This document shows positions 8,918 to 41,453 of a stretch of DNA of 64,000 bases, piece by piece. The notes under the pieces were generated by a model. It was not told where the DNA came from. It worked only from the letters and a program-made list of their open reading frames with translations, and made no database searches. Made by a program: the position numbers and the translations under genes. The stretch's first letter is position 1; each line of letters opens with the position of its first letter. This stretch comes from Terriglobus sp. RCC_193 (lineage in GTDB: Bacteria > Acidobacteriota > Terriglobia > Terriglobales > Acidobacteriaceae): assembly GCF_041355105.1 (NCBI RefSeq), contig NZ_JBFUPK010000004.1, positions 1 through 64,000 of the forward strand, read 5' to 3'.

Positions 8918-9879
8918 AGACTTCGCAACAAATTGCGATGGAGACAATAGCCTGCGAACTTCGCGGTCTTGAGTCGTTGCGTGAAGCGTTTGCCGGTCCG
9001 CTGGGTGATGCATTTGCGCATGCAGTGAATGTGATTGCCGATGCGCCCGGACGCGTGATTGTTACCGGCGTGGGGAAGAGTGGGCACATTGCGCGGAAGC
9101 TTGCGGCGACGCTTGCTTCCACAGGAAAGCCTGCGCACTTCGTTCATCCTTCGGATGCAAGTCACGGTGACCTGGGCATGATTCGCGAGAACGACGTGGT
9201 GTTTGCATTGTCATGGTCGGGTGAGTCGTCAGAATTATCGGATATCGTTTCGCATTCGCGAAGATTCAACGTGCCGTTGATCGTGAGCACGGGCAATGCT
9301 GAGAGCACGCTGGCGAAAGCGGCGGATGTGGTGTTGGCCTTGCCGCAATGCGAAGAAGCCTGTGTGGATTTGATGGCTCCCACGACGAGCACCACGATGC
9401 AACTGGCGTTGGGCGATGCGCTGGCCGCATCGTTAGTGAACAAAACGAACTTTTCCAGGGAAGACTTCCACGCATTGCATCCTGGTGGTCGTCTGGGGAC
9501 ACGGTTACTGCGTGTTCGTACGCTGATGCATGCCGGGGAGGAAGTCCCGTTGCTGCGGGAAGATGCTTCACTCTCCGATGCGATTGTGCGCATGACCAGC
9601 GGGCGCTTTGGCATTACCGGCGTGTTGAATGCGGAAGAAAAGCTGGTGGGTTCGATCACGGACGGCGATCTGCGCCGTGCGTTTTCGCACGGGTTTCATG
9701 ATCGCCCCGCAAAGGATGTGATGGGTCGAACGCCCCGCGTCATTGCGCCAGACGAGTTTGCACATCGTGCGTTGGCGCGTATGAATGCCGAGTCGATTAC
9801 AAGTCTGTTTGTCGTGGAAGAGGGAAGGGTCGTGGGCATTCTACATATCCACGATCTGCTGCGTGCCGGGCTCGTTTAG
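8914..9879 (+). CDS. kdsD: Arabinose 5-phosphate isomerase
   Basis: Isomerises ribulose 5-phosphate to arabinose 5-phosphate, the substrate of KdsA. An N-terminal SIS (sugar isomerase) domain spans about residues 30-180, with GVGKSGHIARKLAATLASTG, HPSDASHGDLGM and the SGESSE phosphate-binding segment. Two CBS domains follow (about 200-320), giving the usual 321 residues of the KpsF/KdsD/GutQ family. ATGA overlap with kdsA indicates coupled translation, and the pair provides two consecutive steps of Kdo synthesis. The stop overlaps that of the convergent adenosine-deaminase-family gene by four bases. Confidence 0.95.
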   Translation: MKTSQQIAMETIACELRGLESLREAFAGPLGDAFAHAVNVIADAPGRVIVTGVGKSGHIARKLAATLASTGKPAHFVHPSDASHGDLGMIRENDVVFALSWSGESSELSDIVSHSRRFNVPLIVSTGNAESTLAKAADVVLALPQCEEACVDLMAPTTSTTMQLALGDALAASLVNKTNFSREDFHALHPGGRLGTRLLRVRTLMHAGEEVPLLREDASLSDAIVRMTSGRFGITGVLNAEEKLVGSITDGDLRRAFSHGFHDRPAKDVMGRTPRVIAPDEFAHRALARMNAESITSLFVVEEGRVVGILHIHDLLRAGLV

Positions 9880-10895
9880 CGATAGCGTTCCACTTCGGCC
9901 AGTAGAGCGATCTTGCGTGCGGGCGGAAGGAAGCTGGCTTCCACAGAGTTTGCTGCCAGTTCGCGCATCTGCTCGTTGGTGAATTCGAACTCACGTTGCA
10001 CGGTTTCGTACTCATCGAGCAGATTTGCGCCGAACATCGGTGGATCGTCGGAGTTGAGCGTAATCATCAGGCCACGCTCAAAATAGTGGCGCACCGGATG
10101 CGTGTCGATCGATTTACAACAGCCTGTGCGCAGATTGCTGGTGACGTTCAGTTCAAGCGGAATCTGTTTCTCTGCAAGAACGTCGAGTAATTCAGGATCA
10201 TCCACTGCCGTCAACGCGTGGCCAATGCGTTCTGCGCCAATGTTGATCGCGCTCCAGATGCTTGTTGCAGGAACACTCTCACCCGCATGTACGGTCAGGT
10301 GTAGCCCGGTAGCCTTGGCTTCTGCGTAGAGATCTTTGAACTCTGCGGCAGGGCCACGTGCTTCGTCGCCGCCAATACCAATACCAATGATGCTGGGATA
10401 TTTCTGTTTCAACTCTGCGGCTTTTGCAAATACCACGGCAGCTTCCTGAACGCCGAAGTGGCGGACGGCATCGAAGATCCAAAAGACAGTGGTGCCGAAG
10501 TCCTGTTCGGCAAGTTCGCGTCCACGTTCCACGGCGGCCATCATGTCTTCCACGGTGATCTGCTGCTTGAATCGCAGAAGTATGCCAACGGAGATGTAGA
10601 CCTCGGCATGACGAACGCCCTGCTGGCTGAGGCGATGCACCATCTCGTAGGTGATCAGCTCGTAATCAGCCGGTGTTTGAATGCGTTCGCTTACGGCCTT
10701 GAAGGCCATCAGGAAGCCAACGAAATCTTCGTAGACATAGAGCTTTTCTGCGGCGCGAAGCGTTAGCGGTTCAGCATCATTGCGTTGCGACAAACGCACC
10801 AGGGTATCGGGCACGATGGTGCCTTCCAGATGTAGATGCAACTCGCATTTGGGGAGACCGCTTAGCCATTCGCGTTGAGAAAGAATTGCCATCAC
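9876..10895 (-). CDS. add: Adenosine deaminase family protein
   Basis: A zinc-dependent amidohydrolase of the adenosine deaminase family that converts adenosine to inosine or deaminates a related purine nucleoside. Metal and catalytic residues are in place: His20 and His22 in HLHLEG, HAGE (203-206), the RIGHA histidine (226), and SDDPPMF with Asp283/Asp284. Length (339) is normal. Subfamily members include 6-aminodeoxyfutalosine deaminase of the futalosine menaquinone route, and sequence inspection cannot exclude that. The gene follows the acyltransferase by nine bases, probably as the last gene of a three-gene minus-strand unit with the permease. Confidence 0.9.
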   Translation of the reverse strand: MMAILSQREWLSGLPKCELHLHLEGTIVPDTLVRLSQRNDAEPLTLRAAEKLYVYEDFVGFLMAFKAVSERIQTPADYELITYEMVHRLSQQGVRHAEVYISVGILLRFKQQITVEDMMAAVERGRELAEQDFGTTVFWIFDAVRHFGVQEAAVVFAKAAELKQKYPSIIGIGIGGDEARGPAAEFKDLYAEAKATGLHLTVHAGESVPATSIWSAINIGAERIGHALTAVDDPELLDVLAEKQIPLELNVTSNLRTGCCKSIDTHPVRHYFERGLMITLNSDDPPMFGANLLDEYETVQREFEFTNEQMRELAANSVEASFLPPARKIALLAEVERYR

Positions 10896-10904
10896 ATCAG
10901 TATT

Positions 10905-12053
10905 TCATTCTGGCGAGGGCGTGGCGATGGCCAAGGGTGGCTCTTTGACAGCAGGCACCCCAGCAGCGGAATCCACCAGGCGAGGGAAGAACTTGTCTCG
11001 GAGTGCCAATGTCGGGAATTCAATCAGCCGGGTCATAAGTATCCCGACCAATATGCCCGCAATGGGAGCAAGGATGCGGTTCGCTGCGGCTTCGTGCGCT
11101 GGCCAAAAACGATGTGTCAGCGAATAGATGGACGTTGAGGTGGAGACGTGCCAGAGATAAATACCGTACGAATAGACGCCGATCCAGGCGACCGCGCGAT
11201 AAAGCCAGGAGTGGCGATGGCCGGGGCGGTAGAGCAATAGAAAAAGCGCAACACCACTCAAATCAGCAAGAAGAGTCCATAGGGGTGGTGCCCATGCCTG
11301 ATGTATTGAAAGGCGGAAAAAGAGAAGCGTGAGACTGATGACCGCGATCCAGAGTGGACGCATATTCTGCACACGGGAGAAGGTTTTCGGTGCGAAGTGA
11401 AAAAGCATCGCAAGGAGAACACCGAAAAGAATGCCGTGAAGCCGGGTGAATGTGAATGTGTAGCTATCCACATGGTAGACGCAGGAAATCCAAAAACTAC
11501 GACCAATTGTGAATGCCGCCAATGCCGCCACGATGCAGAAGACAGTGCGCCACTGCAACTTGAATGATGCGGCAAGGAAGAGCAGAGTCATCAGCAGAAG
11601 ATAGGCGTGTTCCTCAACAGCGAGTGTCCATGTATGGGCGATGCCACCCATGTAGTTCTGAATGTTAAGGAAGTTACCCAAGAGAAACCGGAACGTATGA
11701 CGACCGGTTAGAAGACTTGCAATCAGAAAGATGTAGTACTGCGGCCAGATCTTCAGGCCACGGCGCACGAGGAAACGCTTGATATTGATGTTTCCGCGAA
11801 CCTTCCATTCTTTGAGCAGCAAACCGCCCACAAGAAATCCGCTGAGTACAAAAAATATATCGACGCCCGCTGTACCGAAGGCAGGCCACCCCAAGCGCAG
11901 AAAAGGCCAGAAGAGTATGTAGGACGAGTGGAAGTCAACCACCATGAGGATCGCGATTCCTCGAATGAAGTCCAATTCGATTTCACGCCGCTGTGGCTTT
12001 GTTTCTGGACGCAAAGAAACTGATTCTTCTGGAATCACTGGGCTGTGCTTCAT
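10905..12053 (-). CDS. Acyltransferase 3 family membrane protein
   Basis: An integral membrane O-acyltransferase of the acyltransferase-3 family (OafA/NodX type), which moves acyl groups, often acetyl, to sugars of the envelope. Seen are the family-opening segment ELDFIRGIAILMVVDFHSSY (residues 26-45), FVLSGFLVGGLLLKEW, and about ten hydrophobic helices across 382 residues. It has no C-terminal SGNH domain. It starts two bases after the permease stop and ends nine bases before the deaminase, suggesting one operon. The acceptor is unknown. Confidence 0.88.
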   Translation of the reverse strand: MKHSPVIPEESVSLRPETKPQRREIELDFIRGIAILMVVDFHSSYILFWPFLRLGWPAFGTAGVDIFFVLSGFLVGGLLLKEWKVRGNINIKRFLVRRGLKIWPQYYIFLIASLLTGRHTFRFLLGNFLNIQNYMGGIAHTWTLAVEEHAYLLLMTLLFLAASFKLQWRTVFCIVAALAAFTIGRSFWISCVYHVDSYTFTFTRLHGILFGVLLAMLFHFAPKTFSRVQNMRPLWIAVISLTLLFFRLSIHQAWAPPLWTLLADLSGVALFLLLYRPGHRHSWLYRAVAWIGVYSYGIYLWHVSTSTSIYSLTHRFWPAHEAAANRILAPIAGILVGILMTRLIEFPTLALRDKFFPRLVDSAAGVPAVKEPPLAIATPSPE

Positions 12054-39406: not shown

Positions 39407-40762
39407 CTATTTGCCCAGCAACACGGTCTTGGCGACCAGAAATTCCCGGATGCCCTGCGATCCCAGTTCGCGCCCATATCCGGATCGTTTCGCGCCGCCT
39501 ACCGGAAGTCTTGGATCATCCGCCGGAAGCGCATTCAGCGCCACAAATCCGGCGTCCACACCGTGGATGAGCTGTTGTTGTTCCGCAGGCTCTTTCGTCC
39601 AGACAGAAGCAGCTCGCCCCAGGGGGGTGTCATTTGCGATGGCGATCGCATCCTGCAGATCGTGCGCCCGGAACAAGAGGCAGACCGGGCCAGAGAACGC
39701 ATCGCGTGCCACAGCAGAGTTTCGTGGGACATCGGCGAGCAGTGTCGGTTCAAAGAAATTACCGCGACCCACCATACGTGTTCCGCCTGTCAGAACACGT
39801 CCACCAGCGGTCACCGCTGCCTTCACCTGTTCTTCCAGAAGCGTTACTGCGTCCGATGTCCCCAAAGGCCCCACACGTGTTTCTTCTCGCATAGGATCGC
39901 CTACGGACAGCGATTCCACGGCGCCGATGAGTCGCCCCATTACTGCGGTGTACATCTCAGAGTGCACGATCATGCGCCGAATGCTGTCGCCCTTACCAAT
40001 GGCGTCGATGACAGCGGCAATCGCAGCGTCCTGATCTGCTGAGGGCATTACGATCATCGGATCGTTGCCGGGAAGATGGAGAACGCTTTTCTTCAGTTGC
40101 CATCCGGCCTTTGCTGCCAGGGCGCGTCCGGTGGCTTCCGTCCCACATACAGATACCGCGGCAACGTAATCGTTTGCCAGTGCAGTCTCCACCAGGCTGT
40201 CTTCGATCAGCAGGGCCGTAAGCGCGCCGCGCGGAAATCCGGCGCGGCGTACCAGGGCTTCAATCTGCAGCGAGCATTGCGGAACGCTTGCTGCGTGTTT
40301 CAGCAACACCGCATTCCCCGCAATCAGCACCGGTACACAAAAGCGGAACGCATGCCAGAACGGCGACTGCCACGGCAGCACGGCCAGCACCACACCGATG
40401 GGACTCCACTGCACATAGGCGTGCTCGCCCTCTCCGGGCAGGAGTTCAGGAGCGAGCAACCGTACGGCGTGGTCTGCATAGTAGCGGCAGGTATCCGCGC
40501 ATCGGGCCACTTCCTTCGCAGATGCTGCGATGGTTTTCCCTGTCTCCTGCGTGATGGTGCGCGCCAGCTCCACGCCTTCCTCATCCAGAAGAGAAGCAAG
40601 TTTTCGCAGGCATAGCAGGCGGTGCTCTAGGGGGAGCGCGCGTTGGAGTGTGGCTGCTTCATGGGCCTGCGCAATGCGTGCCTGCAGCGCATCTTCGTCC
40701 CACGTCGCAAAGGTGCGGAGTGTATCTCCTGTTGCCGGATTAAGGGACTGCAGTGGCATCAA
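39407..40762 (-). CDS. Aldehyde-dehydrogenase-fold protein lacking catalytic residues
   Basis: A 451-residue member of the NAD(P)-aldehyde dehydrogenase superfamily, nearest in pattern to succinate-semialdehyde dehydrogenase (Sad/YneI): SPIGVVLAVLPWQSPFWHAF, VLIAGNAVLLKHA, VGDPMREETRVGPLGTSD and the C-terminal GGAKRSGYGRELG. The catalytic apparatus is gone. PWN is PWQ (Gln132), the general base Glu in LELGG is His229 (LHLPGNDP), and the nucleophile Cys region is shortened and has no Cys (GKGDSIRRM, 257-264). The cofactor Glu before FGP is also missing (RDAFSGP). The frame is otherwise intact, so it looks like a maintained pseudoenzyme and not a decayed gene. Confidence 0.9.
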   Translation of the reverse strand: MMPLQSLNPATGDTLRTFATWDEDALQARIAQAHEAATLQRALPLEHRLLCLRKLASLLDEEGVELARTITQETGKTIAASAKEVARCADTCRYYADHAVRLLAPELLPGEGEHAYVQWSPIGVVLAVLPWQSPFWHAFRFCVPVLIAGNAVLLKHAASVPQCSLQIEALVRRAGFPRGALTALLIEDSLVETALANDYVAAVSVCGTEATGRALAAKAGWQLKKSVLHLPGNDPMIVMPSADQDAAIAAVIDAIGKGDSIRRMIVHSEMYTAVMGRLIGAVESLSVGDPMREETRVGPLGTSDAVTLLEEQVKAAVTAGGRVLTGGTRMVGRGNFFEPTLLADVPRNSAVARDAFSGPVCLLFRAHDLQDAIAIANDTPLGRAASVWTKEPAEQQQLIHGVDAGFVALNALPADDPRLPVGGAKRSGYGRELGSQGIREFLVAKTVLLGK

Positions 40763-40967
40763 ACTCCTCGGCCGTTAAATCTGACGGTATACCGGTAACA
40801 GCGTGGCATACCTGTTCCCATCGCATCTACGGTAGCAAAGCCAGTCCACAGGCGGCTTTCTGTGGTGGCGGCAGGCTCAAAGGTCTATAGTAACGGGCCG
40901 CATGCGACATGGCCCTGAACTCGCCATTCTCATGGCGCCCTGCGATACTTAAGTGGAGGCATTACAG
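40763..40967. other. Divergent intergenic region
   Basis: About 205 bases separate the aldehyde-dehydrogenase-like gene (minus) from the guanine-deaminase gene (plus). It should hold both promoters; no repeat or strong hairpin is seen. Confidence 0.4.
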
Positions 40968-41453
40968 ATGAGCAATACCGTTTCTCCCGATCCGAAGTTC
41001 ATGCGCATGGCAATTGAGCTGGCCACAGACAATGTCATCTCGGGGAACGGTGGGCCGTTCGGTGCGGTGGTCGTACGCAATGGCGAAGTGATTGCTGCTG
41101 CCGCAAACACCGTAACATTTGCCAACGATCCTACGGCGCACGCCGAGGTAAACGCGATCCGGGCAGCGTGTGCGAAGCTGGAGACCTTCCAGCTTGAGGA
41201 TTGCGACGTCTACACCTCATGCGAACCCTGCCCCATGTGCATGGCGGCGCTCTACTGGTCGCGTTGCCGGGCGGTGTACTACGGAAATACCAAGGCTGAC
41301 GCTGCGGCGGTGGGGTTCGACGATCAGTTTCTGTACGAAGAGGTCAATCGGCCGCTGGAACAGCGCCGCATTCCGTTTCAACGCATGTTGCCGGGTGAAG
41401 CTATCCGCTCGTTCCAGGCATGGCAAAACAGCAATGAAAGGATCGATTACTAA
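40968..41453 (+). CDS. guaD: Guanine deaminase (cytidine-deaminase fold)
   Basis: A 161-residue zinc enzyme converting guanine to xanthine. The zinc site is HAEVNAI plus PCPMCMAALYW, and the segment NTKADAAAVGFDDQFLYEEV is typical of the GuaD subgroup and separates it from the tRNA adenosine deaminase TadA. AGTGGAGG precedes the ATG. The homoserine dehydrogenase gene starts five bases after the stop, so the two may share a transcript, although their functions are unrelated. Confidence 0.88.
   Translation: MSNTVSPDPKFMRMAIELATDNVISGNGGPFGAVVVRNGEVIAAAANTVTFANDPTAHAEVNAIRAACAKLETFQLEDCDVYTSCEPCPMCMAALYWSRCRAVYYGNTKADAAAVGFDDQFLYEEVNRPLEQRRIPFQRMLPGEAIRSFQAWQNSNERIDY

Follow-up and report, generated by a model that had tools for sequence, protein, structure and literature searches.

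An aldehyde dehydrogenase homolog without catalytic residues is under purifying selection in Terriglobus and persists where its urate-degradation operon has been deleted

Introduction

The solved aldehyde dehydrogenases (ALDHs) nearest by sequence to the protein described here are cyanobacterial succinate-semialdehyde dehydrogenases. In PMC7510979, mutants of Cys262 and Glu228 of the cyanobacterial enzyme are reported, Ser157 and Lys154, both located by the 2'-phosphate of NADP, are found to determine cofactor preference, and Trp135, Arg139, and Ser419 are placed next to the substrate carboxylate. Enzyme residue numbers below follow that source, whose E360 and S419 correspond to residues 354 and 414 of our protein.

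Dead members of the superfamily are known. Mammalian ALDH16A1 has an ALDH fold without the catalytic triad and is judged, in the cited part of PMC10650815, to be a pseudoenzyme that works via protein contacts; it is linked there to purine/urate metabolism, by a gout variant, and to gout through HPRT1. The second AldDH of GRM1 microcompartment loci, in which the Cys is replaced by Ser or Pro, is presumed in PMC4207490 to be an inefficient catalyst, and a scaffolding or regulatory role is suggested for it. A search of the open-licence PMC literature returned no paper listed as describing a dead acidobacterial ALDH or a urate operon that includes an ALDH. Here, we describe an ALDH homolog from Terriglobus sp. 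RCC_193 that is encoded within a stretch of 64,000 nucleotides (contig NZ_JBFUPK010000004.1, positions 1 to 64,000), hereafter the window, and compare its locus with those of its relatives.

Results

Gene, family assignment, and predicted fold

An open reading frame without interruption is present at positions 39407-40762 of the reverse strand, as had been reported from inspection of the sequence (hereafter the original prediction). The location and the open frame therefore stand, while the start is revised: the ATG one codon downstream of the reported TTG, at 40759, is favored and is backed by every dead ortholog. The features of the locus are collected in Table 1.

Table 1. Positions of the dead ALDH gene, its altered residues, and neighboring features in the window.
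Feature	Position	Strand	Basis
Dead aldehyde dehydrogenase gene, 450 aa, ATG start at 40759	39407..40759	-	ORF, ortholog starts, family match, model
Residue 131: Gln replaces catalytic Asn (Glu in other four dead copies)	40367..40369	-	alignment
Residue 228: His replaces general-base Glu (Gln in G008)	40076..40078	-	alignment
Nucleophile loop, about residues 250-263: 5 residues shorter, no Cys (C262 stretch)	39972..40012	-	alignment
Residue 354 (E360 of Synechococcus enzyme): Ala replaces cofactor-ribose Glu	39698..39700	-	alignment
Residue 414 (S419 of Synechococcus enzyme): Asp, invariant across dead clade	39518..39520	-	alignment
Scar, 3'-end remnant of deleted M20 amidohydrolase gene; holds TTTGCTACCGTAG block (40827-40839)	40819..40842	-	comparison with operon loci
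Block common to guaD/allB divergent intergenic region of operon-bearing species (AAGTATCGCAGGGC...AATGGCGAG)	40920..40950	-	sequence comparison
Divergent neighbor, guanine-deaminase-like	40968..41453	+	best solved match 1wkq, E 5e-54

The encoded protein matches Aldedh (PF00171) over residues 4-446 with 354.5 bits (cut-off 23), which places it in the ALDH superfamily by sequence. Its nearest solved relative by sequence is the Synechococcus succinate-semialdehyde dehydrogenase 4it9 (E 8.5e-111), with 3vz1-3 also matched, and the alignment with this family runs the whole length of the protein, as originally predicted. The score against the succinate-semialdehyde dehydrogenase family NF006915 was 450.4 bits, below the cut-off of 730; the intact sister ortholog L011 likewise remained below it, at 621.8 bits. 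Since the best NCBIfam and PDB matches are of the Sad/SSADH types, the protein does not belong to the ALDH16 family. An AlphaFold2 model (pLDDT 89.9) has the ALDH fold, matching 3vz3 with a TM score of 0.96, a Z score of 53.6, and an rmsd of 1.6. For L011, modeled from the same 33 sequences, the pLDDT was 93.5, and the dead model was weaker than that of L011 near residues 250-260 and 420-440.

Catalytic residues and cleft

Comparison with the Synechococcus enzyme reproduced each of the replacements named in the original prediction, namely those at N131, E228, the C262 stretch, and E360. The accompanying statement that all catalytic positions are replaced holds for these four and has to be narrowed for the remainder, because the functional residues W130, W135, R139, K154, and G206 remain, and are retained in all five dead copies now known (see below). 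The protein thus lacks the catalytic Asn, Glu, and Cys and the cofactor Glu of an active aldehyde dehydrogenase, reading Q, H, deleted, and A, and the alignment and the census below identify it as an enzyme homolog that has lost its catalytic residues. S157 was not retained in the dead clade and is variable also among intact orthologs.

The changes extend beyond these positions. At 27 sites, the residue held by at least 90% of 47 intact orthologs is missing from all five dead copies, and at 12 of the 27 one common new residue is found in all five. Several of the changes fall in cleft-lining motifs, as placed by motif rather than from coordinates: F132 to S, Q136 to H, G230 to P, E354 to A, F407 to A, and S414 to D.

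Distribution and phylogeny of the dead form

The genus search covered 19 Terriglobus genomes, 16 of which gave a match at E ≤ 1e-60. The dead form was present in five of the 19, namely the genome of the window (G000), Terriglobus roseus DSM 18391 (G004, NC_018014.1), G005, G006, and G008. Identity to the window protein was 89% for G008 and G005, 66% for G004, and 64% for G006. The homolog census was drawn from the genus and 300 genomes of the family and comprised 123 sequences (L004 was omitted as a copy of L006, and L002, L003, L005, and L149 were without a usable match). In this census, 117 homologs read N/E/C/E, five were dead, and one (L028) was cut off. All four positions were changed together in five sequences, all of one clade, and by this sequence count their co-occurring loss is more than chance.

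A maximum-likelihood tree of 121 homologs (L021 and L028 excluded as partial; quick search, no bootstrap) united the dead five as one clade with an SH-aLRT of 100, which corresponds to one change on the tree. Orthologs with the same changes, which the original prediction had proposed to look for, therefore exist in five Terriglobus species. The sister group, L011-L013, is intact; its members are 71 to 76% identical among themselves and 55 to 61% identical to the dead clade. The stem of the dead clade is long (0.36), and together with the low identity to the sister group this makes a period of relaxed constraint on the stem possible. A scan of GTDB genome contigs for a wider spread returned T. 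roseus alone, and a scan with a single protein returned nothing. When a five-sequence profile was run on 298 genomes of the order, no additional protein scored high: the lowest dead copy among the matches listed, G004 lying outside that list, had 890 bits and the next protein 671. The dead form is accordingly known from five species of a single genus.

A different ALDH gene of G005 (C1:3734560-3735861) carries one in-frame TGA and perhaps shows how a decaying ALDH looks in the same genus.

The urate operon and its deletion

The ALDH of G006 is preceded by genes for allantoinase, OHCU decarboxylase, urate oxidase, allantoate amidohydrolase, (S)-ureidoglycine aminohydrolase, and a second M20 amidase. 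All but the last scored above their NCBIfam cut-offs. The second M20 gene is putatively a ureidoglycolate amidohydrolase; it clears the general TIGR01879 cut-off alone, falling 0.4 bits short of NF006771. This six-gene set corresponds to the route from urate to glyoxylate. The gene order in T. roseus is the same, as judged from ORFs and sequence. A uricase gene is present no more than 5 kb from the ALDH in eight Terriglobus genomes (G001, G002, G004, G006, G007, G014, G015, and G018), so the ALDH belongs to the urate operon. In six of the eight the ALDH is intact, and in G004 and G006 a dead ALDH sits in a complete operon. In the relatives, the intact ALDH thus stands at the end of a urate-degradation operon, and its candidate substrate may be glyoxylate or a related aldehyde acid. 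An ALDH that closes a urate-to-glyoxylate operon is seemingly common in Acidobacteriaceae (L051-L054, L057-L060, L062, and L065).

The three other dead copies are orphans. In G000, G005, and G008, the six upstream operon genes are gone from the locus, the dead ALDH is retained, and no uricase is present anywhere in the genome; across the genus, uricase is missing in seven of 19 genomes. The G000 genome also yielded no allantoinase over the cut-off and no molybdenum-hydroxylase (MoCoBD_2) match, hence no sign of xanthine dehydrogenase. The deletion left a scar of 24 bases about 60-83 bases before the window ATG. In the three orphan species, the scar is identical to G004/G006 at 20-21 of 24 positions, as against 16-17 for the best of 30 shuffles. 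The guanine deaminase gene still adjoins the dead ALDH in divergent orientation in the orphan locus. A separate loss of the same six-gene operon was observed in G003 (L055, about 9538-11060), a member of the intact sister group, where an intact ALDH was also spared and the locus has its own remnant (21-22/24).

A palindrome-like block, TTTGCTAC(N)GTAG, precedes the ALDH start (window 40827-40839, reverse strand) and is exact in all eight dead and sister loci (L006-L013). It falls within coding sequence where the operon is present and within the scar where the operon is lost, and it possibly serves the ALDH gene as promoter or operator. A regulon based on the TTTGCTACNGTAG block was rejected, as the block occurs in a single copy in the G000 genome. 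The sequence CCGTTACTATA (window 40882-40897, reverse strand) precedes the orphan gene in all of G000, G005, and G008 and looks like a -10 element gained after the deletion. In G004, four equal-score match pairs, all about 460,520 bases apart, were observed at C1 about 2308738-2588806 and 2769257-3049325; they point to a large duplication, which may account for the 10% "contamination" value of this genome.

Selection on the dead gene

Selection was assessed from dN/dS (NG86). Among the three orphan copies, dN/dS was 0.055, 0.065, and 0.067 (codon-bootstrap limits 0.037-0.094) at a dS of 0.86-0.94, and the G004/G006 pair gave 0.096 (0.068-0.130). Between the halves of the dead clade the ratio was 0.076-0.159, with dS saturated. 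For comparison, eleven intact ALDH pairs gave 0.018-0.172, and seven neighboring genes of the window, set against their counterparts in G008 or G005 (14 comparisons, some of part of a gene), gave 0.014-0.117 with a dS similar to that of the dead ALDH. The dead gene is therefore under purifying selection at the rate of its neighbors.

None of the five dead copies contains a stop or frameshift, in line with the intact frame originally predicted. In simulations of unselected decay at 0.2 changes per site, a mean of 5.9-6.3 stops accumulated, and for each gene no more than 1 run in 300 was stop-free; at 0.43 per site, none of 300 runs was. Of the 161 columns that are at least 95% conserved in the 47 intact orthologs, 103 are retained in all five dead copies. 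In the nucleophile-loop segment (residues 250-274), only two of ten conserved columns are retained. Judged from these columns, constraint is lifted at the former Cys site and retained elsewhere. Taken together, dN/dS, the decay simulation, and the comparison with neighbors describe a gene that stayed intact and under purifying selection once its catalytic residues were gone.

Discussion

We consider it likely that the window protein is a selected non-catalytic protein, a true ALDH pseudoenzyme that was kept after its operon was deleted. Because catalytic residues were lost, purifying selection continued, and the operon was deleted, we infer from the sequences that the lasting role must be non-catalytic, at least with respect to aldehyde dehydrogenase activity.

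A slowly decaying pseudogene left behind by the loss of the urate operon might be suspected, as both the catalytic residues and the operon are missing in the species of the window and the long stem is compatible with relaxed constraint. The order of events speaks against it, however: catalytic loss preceded operon loss, with T. roseus and G006 holding the dead gene in a complete operon. Five lineages without stops or frameshifts and a dN/dS far below 1 after both events argue the same way, and an inflation of dS at this locus only does not fit the similar dS of the neighbors. The original prediction had favored selection over simple decay and had held that intact residues in close relatives would mark a decaying copy. 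Intact sister orthologs do exist, yet the dead form is common to five species, and its survival of the operon deletion supports selection; decay was rejected and seems to us very improbable. An error of sequencing or assembly in the window can hardly be credited, as the deletion and substitutions recur in five separate assemblies, including that of T. roseus DSM 18391.

Two other roles would also keep the gene under selection. The dead ALDH might form mixed oligomers with an active ALDH and tune or stabilize that enzyme, a role that the fold retained in the model would permit. ALDHs function as oligomers, the cyanobacterial relative being judged a dimer in excerpts of PMC7510979, and all five genomes encode other ALDHs. 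We nonetheless regard this role as unlikely. The natural partner, a Sad-like paralog, is present in G005, G006, and G008 and not in G000 or G004. The other ALDHs of G000 are remote, the closest one found being 32% identical (L001) and three others failing the 1e-40 cut, and no active ALDH gene is adjacent. The partner ALDH that the original prediction suggested looking for was thus not found, in that no close paralog is common to the five genomes and no second ALDH lies within the 64-kb window. Alternatively, the remodeled pocket (Glu/Gln131, His136, His/Gln228, Pro230, and Asp414) could carry out another, non-dehydrogenase reaction or bind a metal. The pocket changes are indeed non-random, with His136, Pro230, Ala354, Asp414, Ala407, and Ser132 the same in all five copies. 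However, the possible acid/base residues are both unfixed (Q, E, E, E, E at 131 and H, Q, H, H, H at 228), and a catalytic dyad should not tolerate such variation. A new acid-base dyad of residues 131 and 228 was rejected on this ground, and we hold a repurposed site to be quite improbable.

Returning to a selected non-catalytic protein, its course can be read from the sequences, the tree, and the census. An ALDH that closed a urate-to-glyoxylate operon in Acidobacteriaceae was stripped of nucleophile loop, base, oxyanion Asn, and cofactor Glu a single time, in an ancestor of the five Terriglobus species. Purifying selection has retained it since, also in the species that deleted the six remaining genes of the operon. 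As to mechanism, we propose that the ALDH fold is kept, and presumably the oligomer too. Retention of Lys154 and Trp135/Arg139 suggests that the nucleotide and carboxylate sites persist in part, and Ser419 to Asp, Gly230 to Pro, and the missing loop would block the old reaction. With Gln136 to His as a further change, the old cleft may bind a small acid or nucleotide, and the loaded protein may then act through contact with another protein. Such a contact partner is likely, because binding has to produce an effect of some kind; by its position only, the divergently transcribed guanine deaminase is the nearest candidate. This ligand-plus-partner mechanism, taken by itself, is put forward tentatively, with more doubt than confidence.

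On a broader and, in our estimation, rather unlikely view, an ALDH fold became a stand-alone ligand-sensing or regulatory protein. It would first have stood, already dead, at the end of a seemingly complete urate operon and later have taken on an independent job important enough for the operon to be deleted around it. Its remodeled cleft would bind NADP(H) or an acid derived from purines or glyoxylate, and the protein would signal via a protein partner.

Bacterial pseudoenzymes are rarely found with their history preserved. Here, intact, dead-in-operon, and dead-orphan stages occur together in one genus, including the deposited strain T. roseus DSM 18391, and the step from enzyme to non-enzyme is thus directly testable. 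In addition, annotations as "aldehyde dehydrogenase" in Acidobacteriota may mislead on chemistry.

Comparison with known systems

The Sad/YneI-type and cyanobacterial succinate-semialdehyde dehydrogenases (4it9, 4itb, 3vz3; NF006915, NF010575) resemble the window protein in whole-length homology, fold, and Trp135/Arg139/Lys154. Unlike them, the window protein is without nucleophile, base, oxyanion Asn, and cofactor Glu, and its loop is five residues shorter. ALDH pseudoenzymes are already known, and by sequence the window protein belongs to neither of the described kinds. With ALDH16A1 it shares an ALDH fold without the catalytic triad and a purine/urate connection, although the urate connection, striking as it is, is most likely a coincidence; the window protein is of another ALDH family and origin, bacterial, and single-domain, and has the loop itself deleted. 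Similarly, the second AldDH of GRM1 loci is a bacterial ALDH presumed to be an inefficient catalyst, but there the Cys is substituted and another AldDH is present in the locus, whereas the window protein has lost four positions together with the loop and has no second ALDH in positions 1-64000 of the window.
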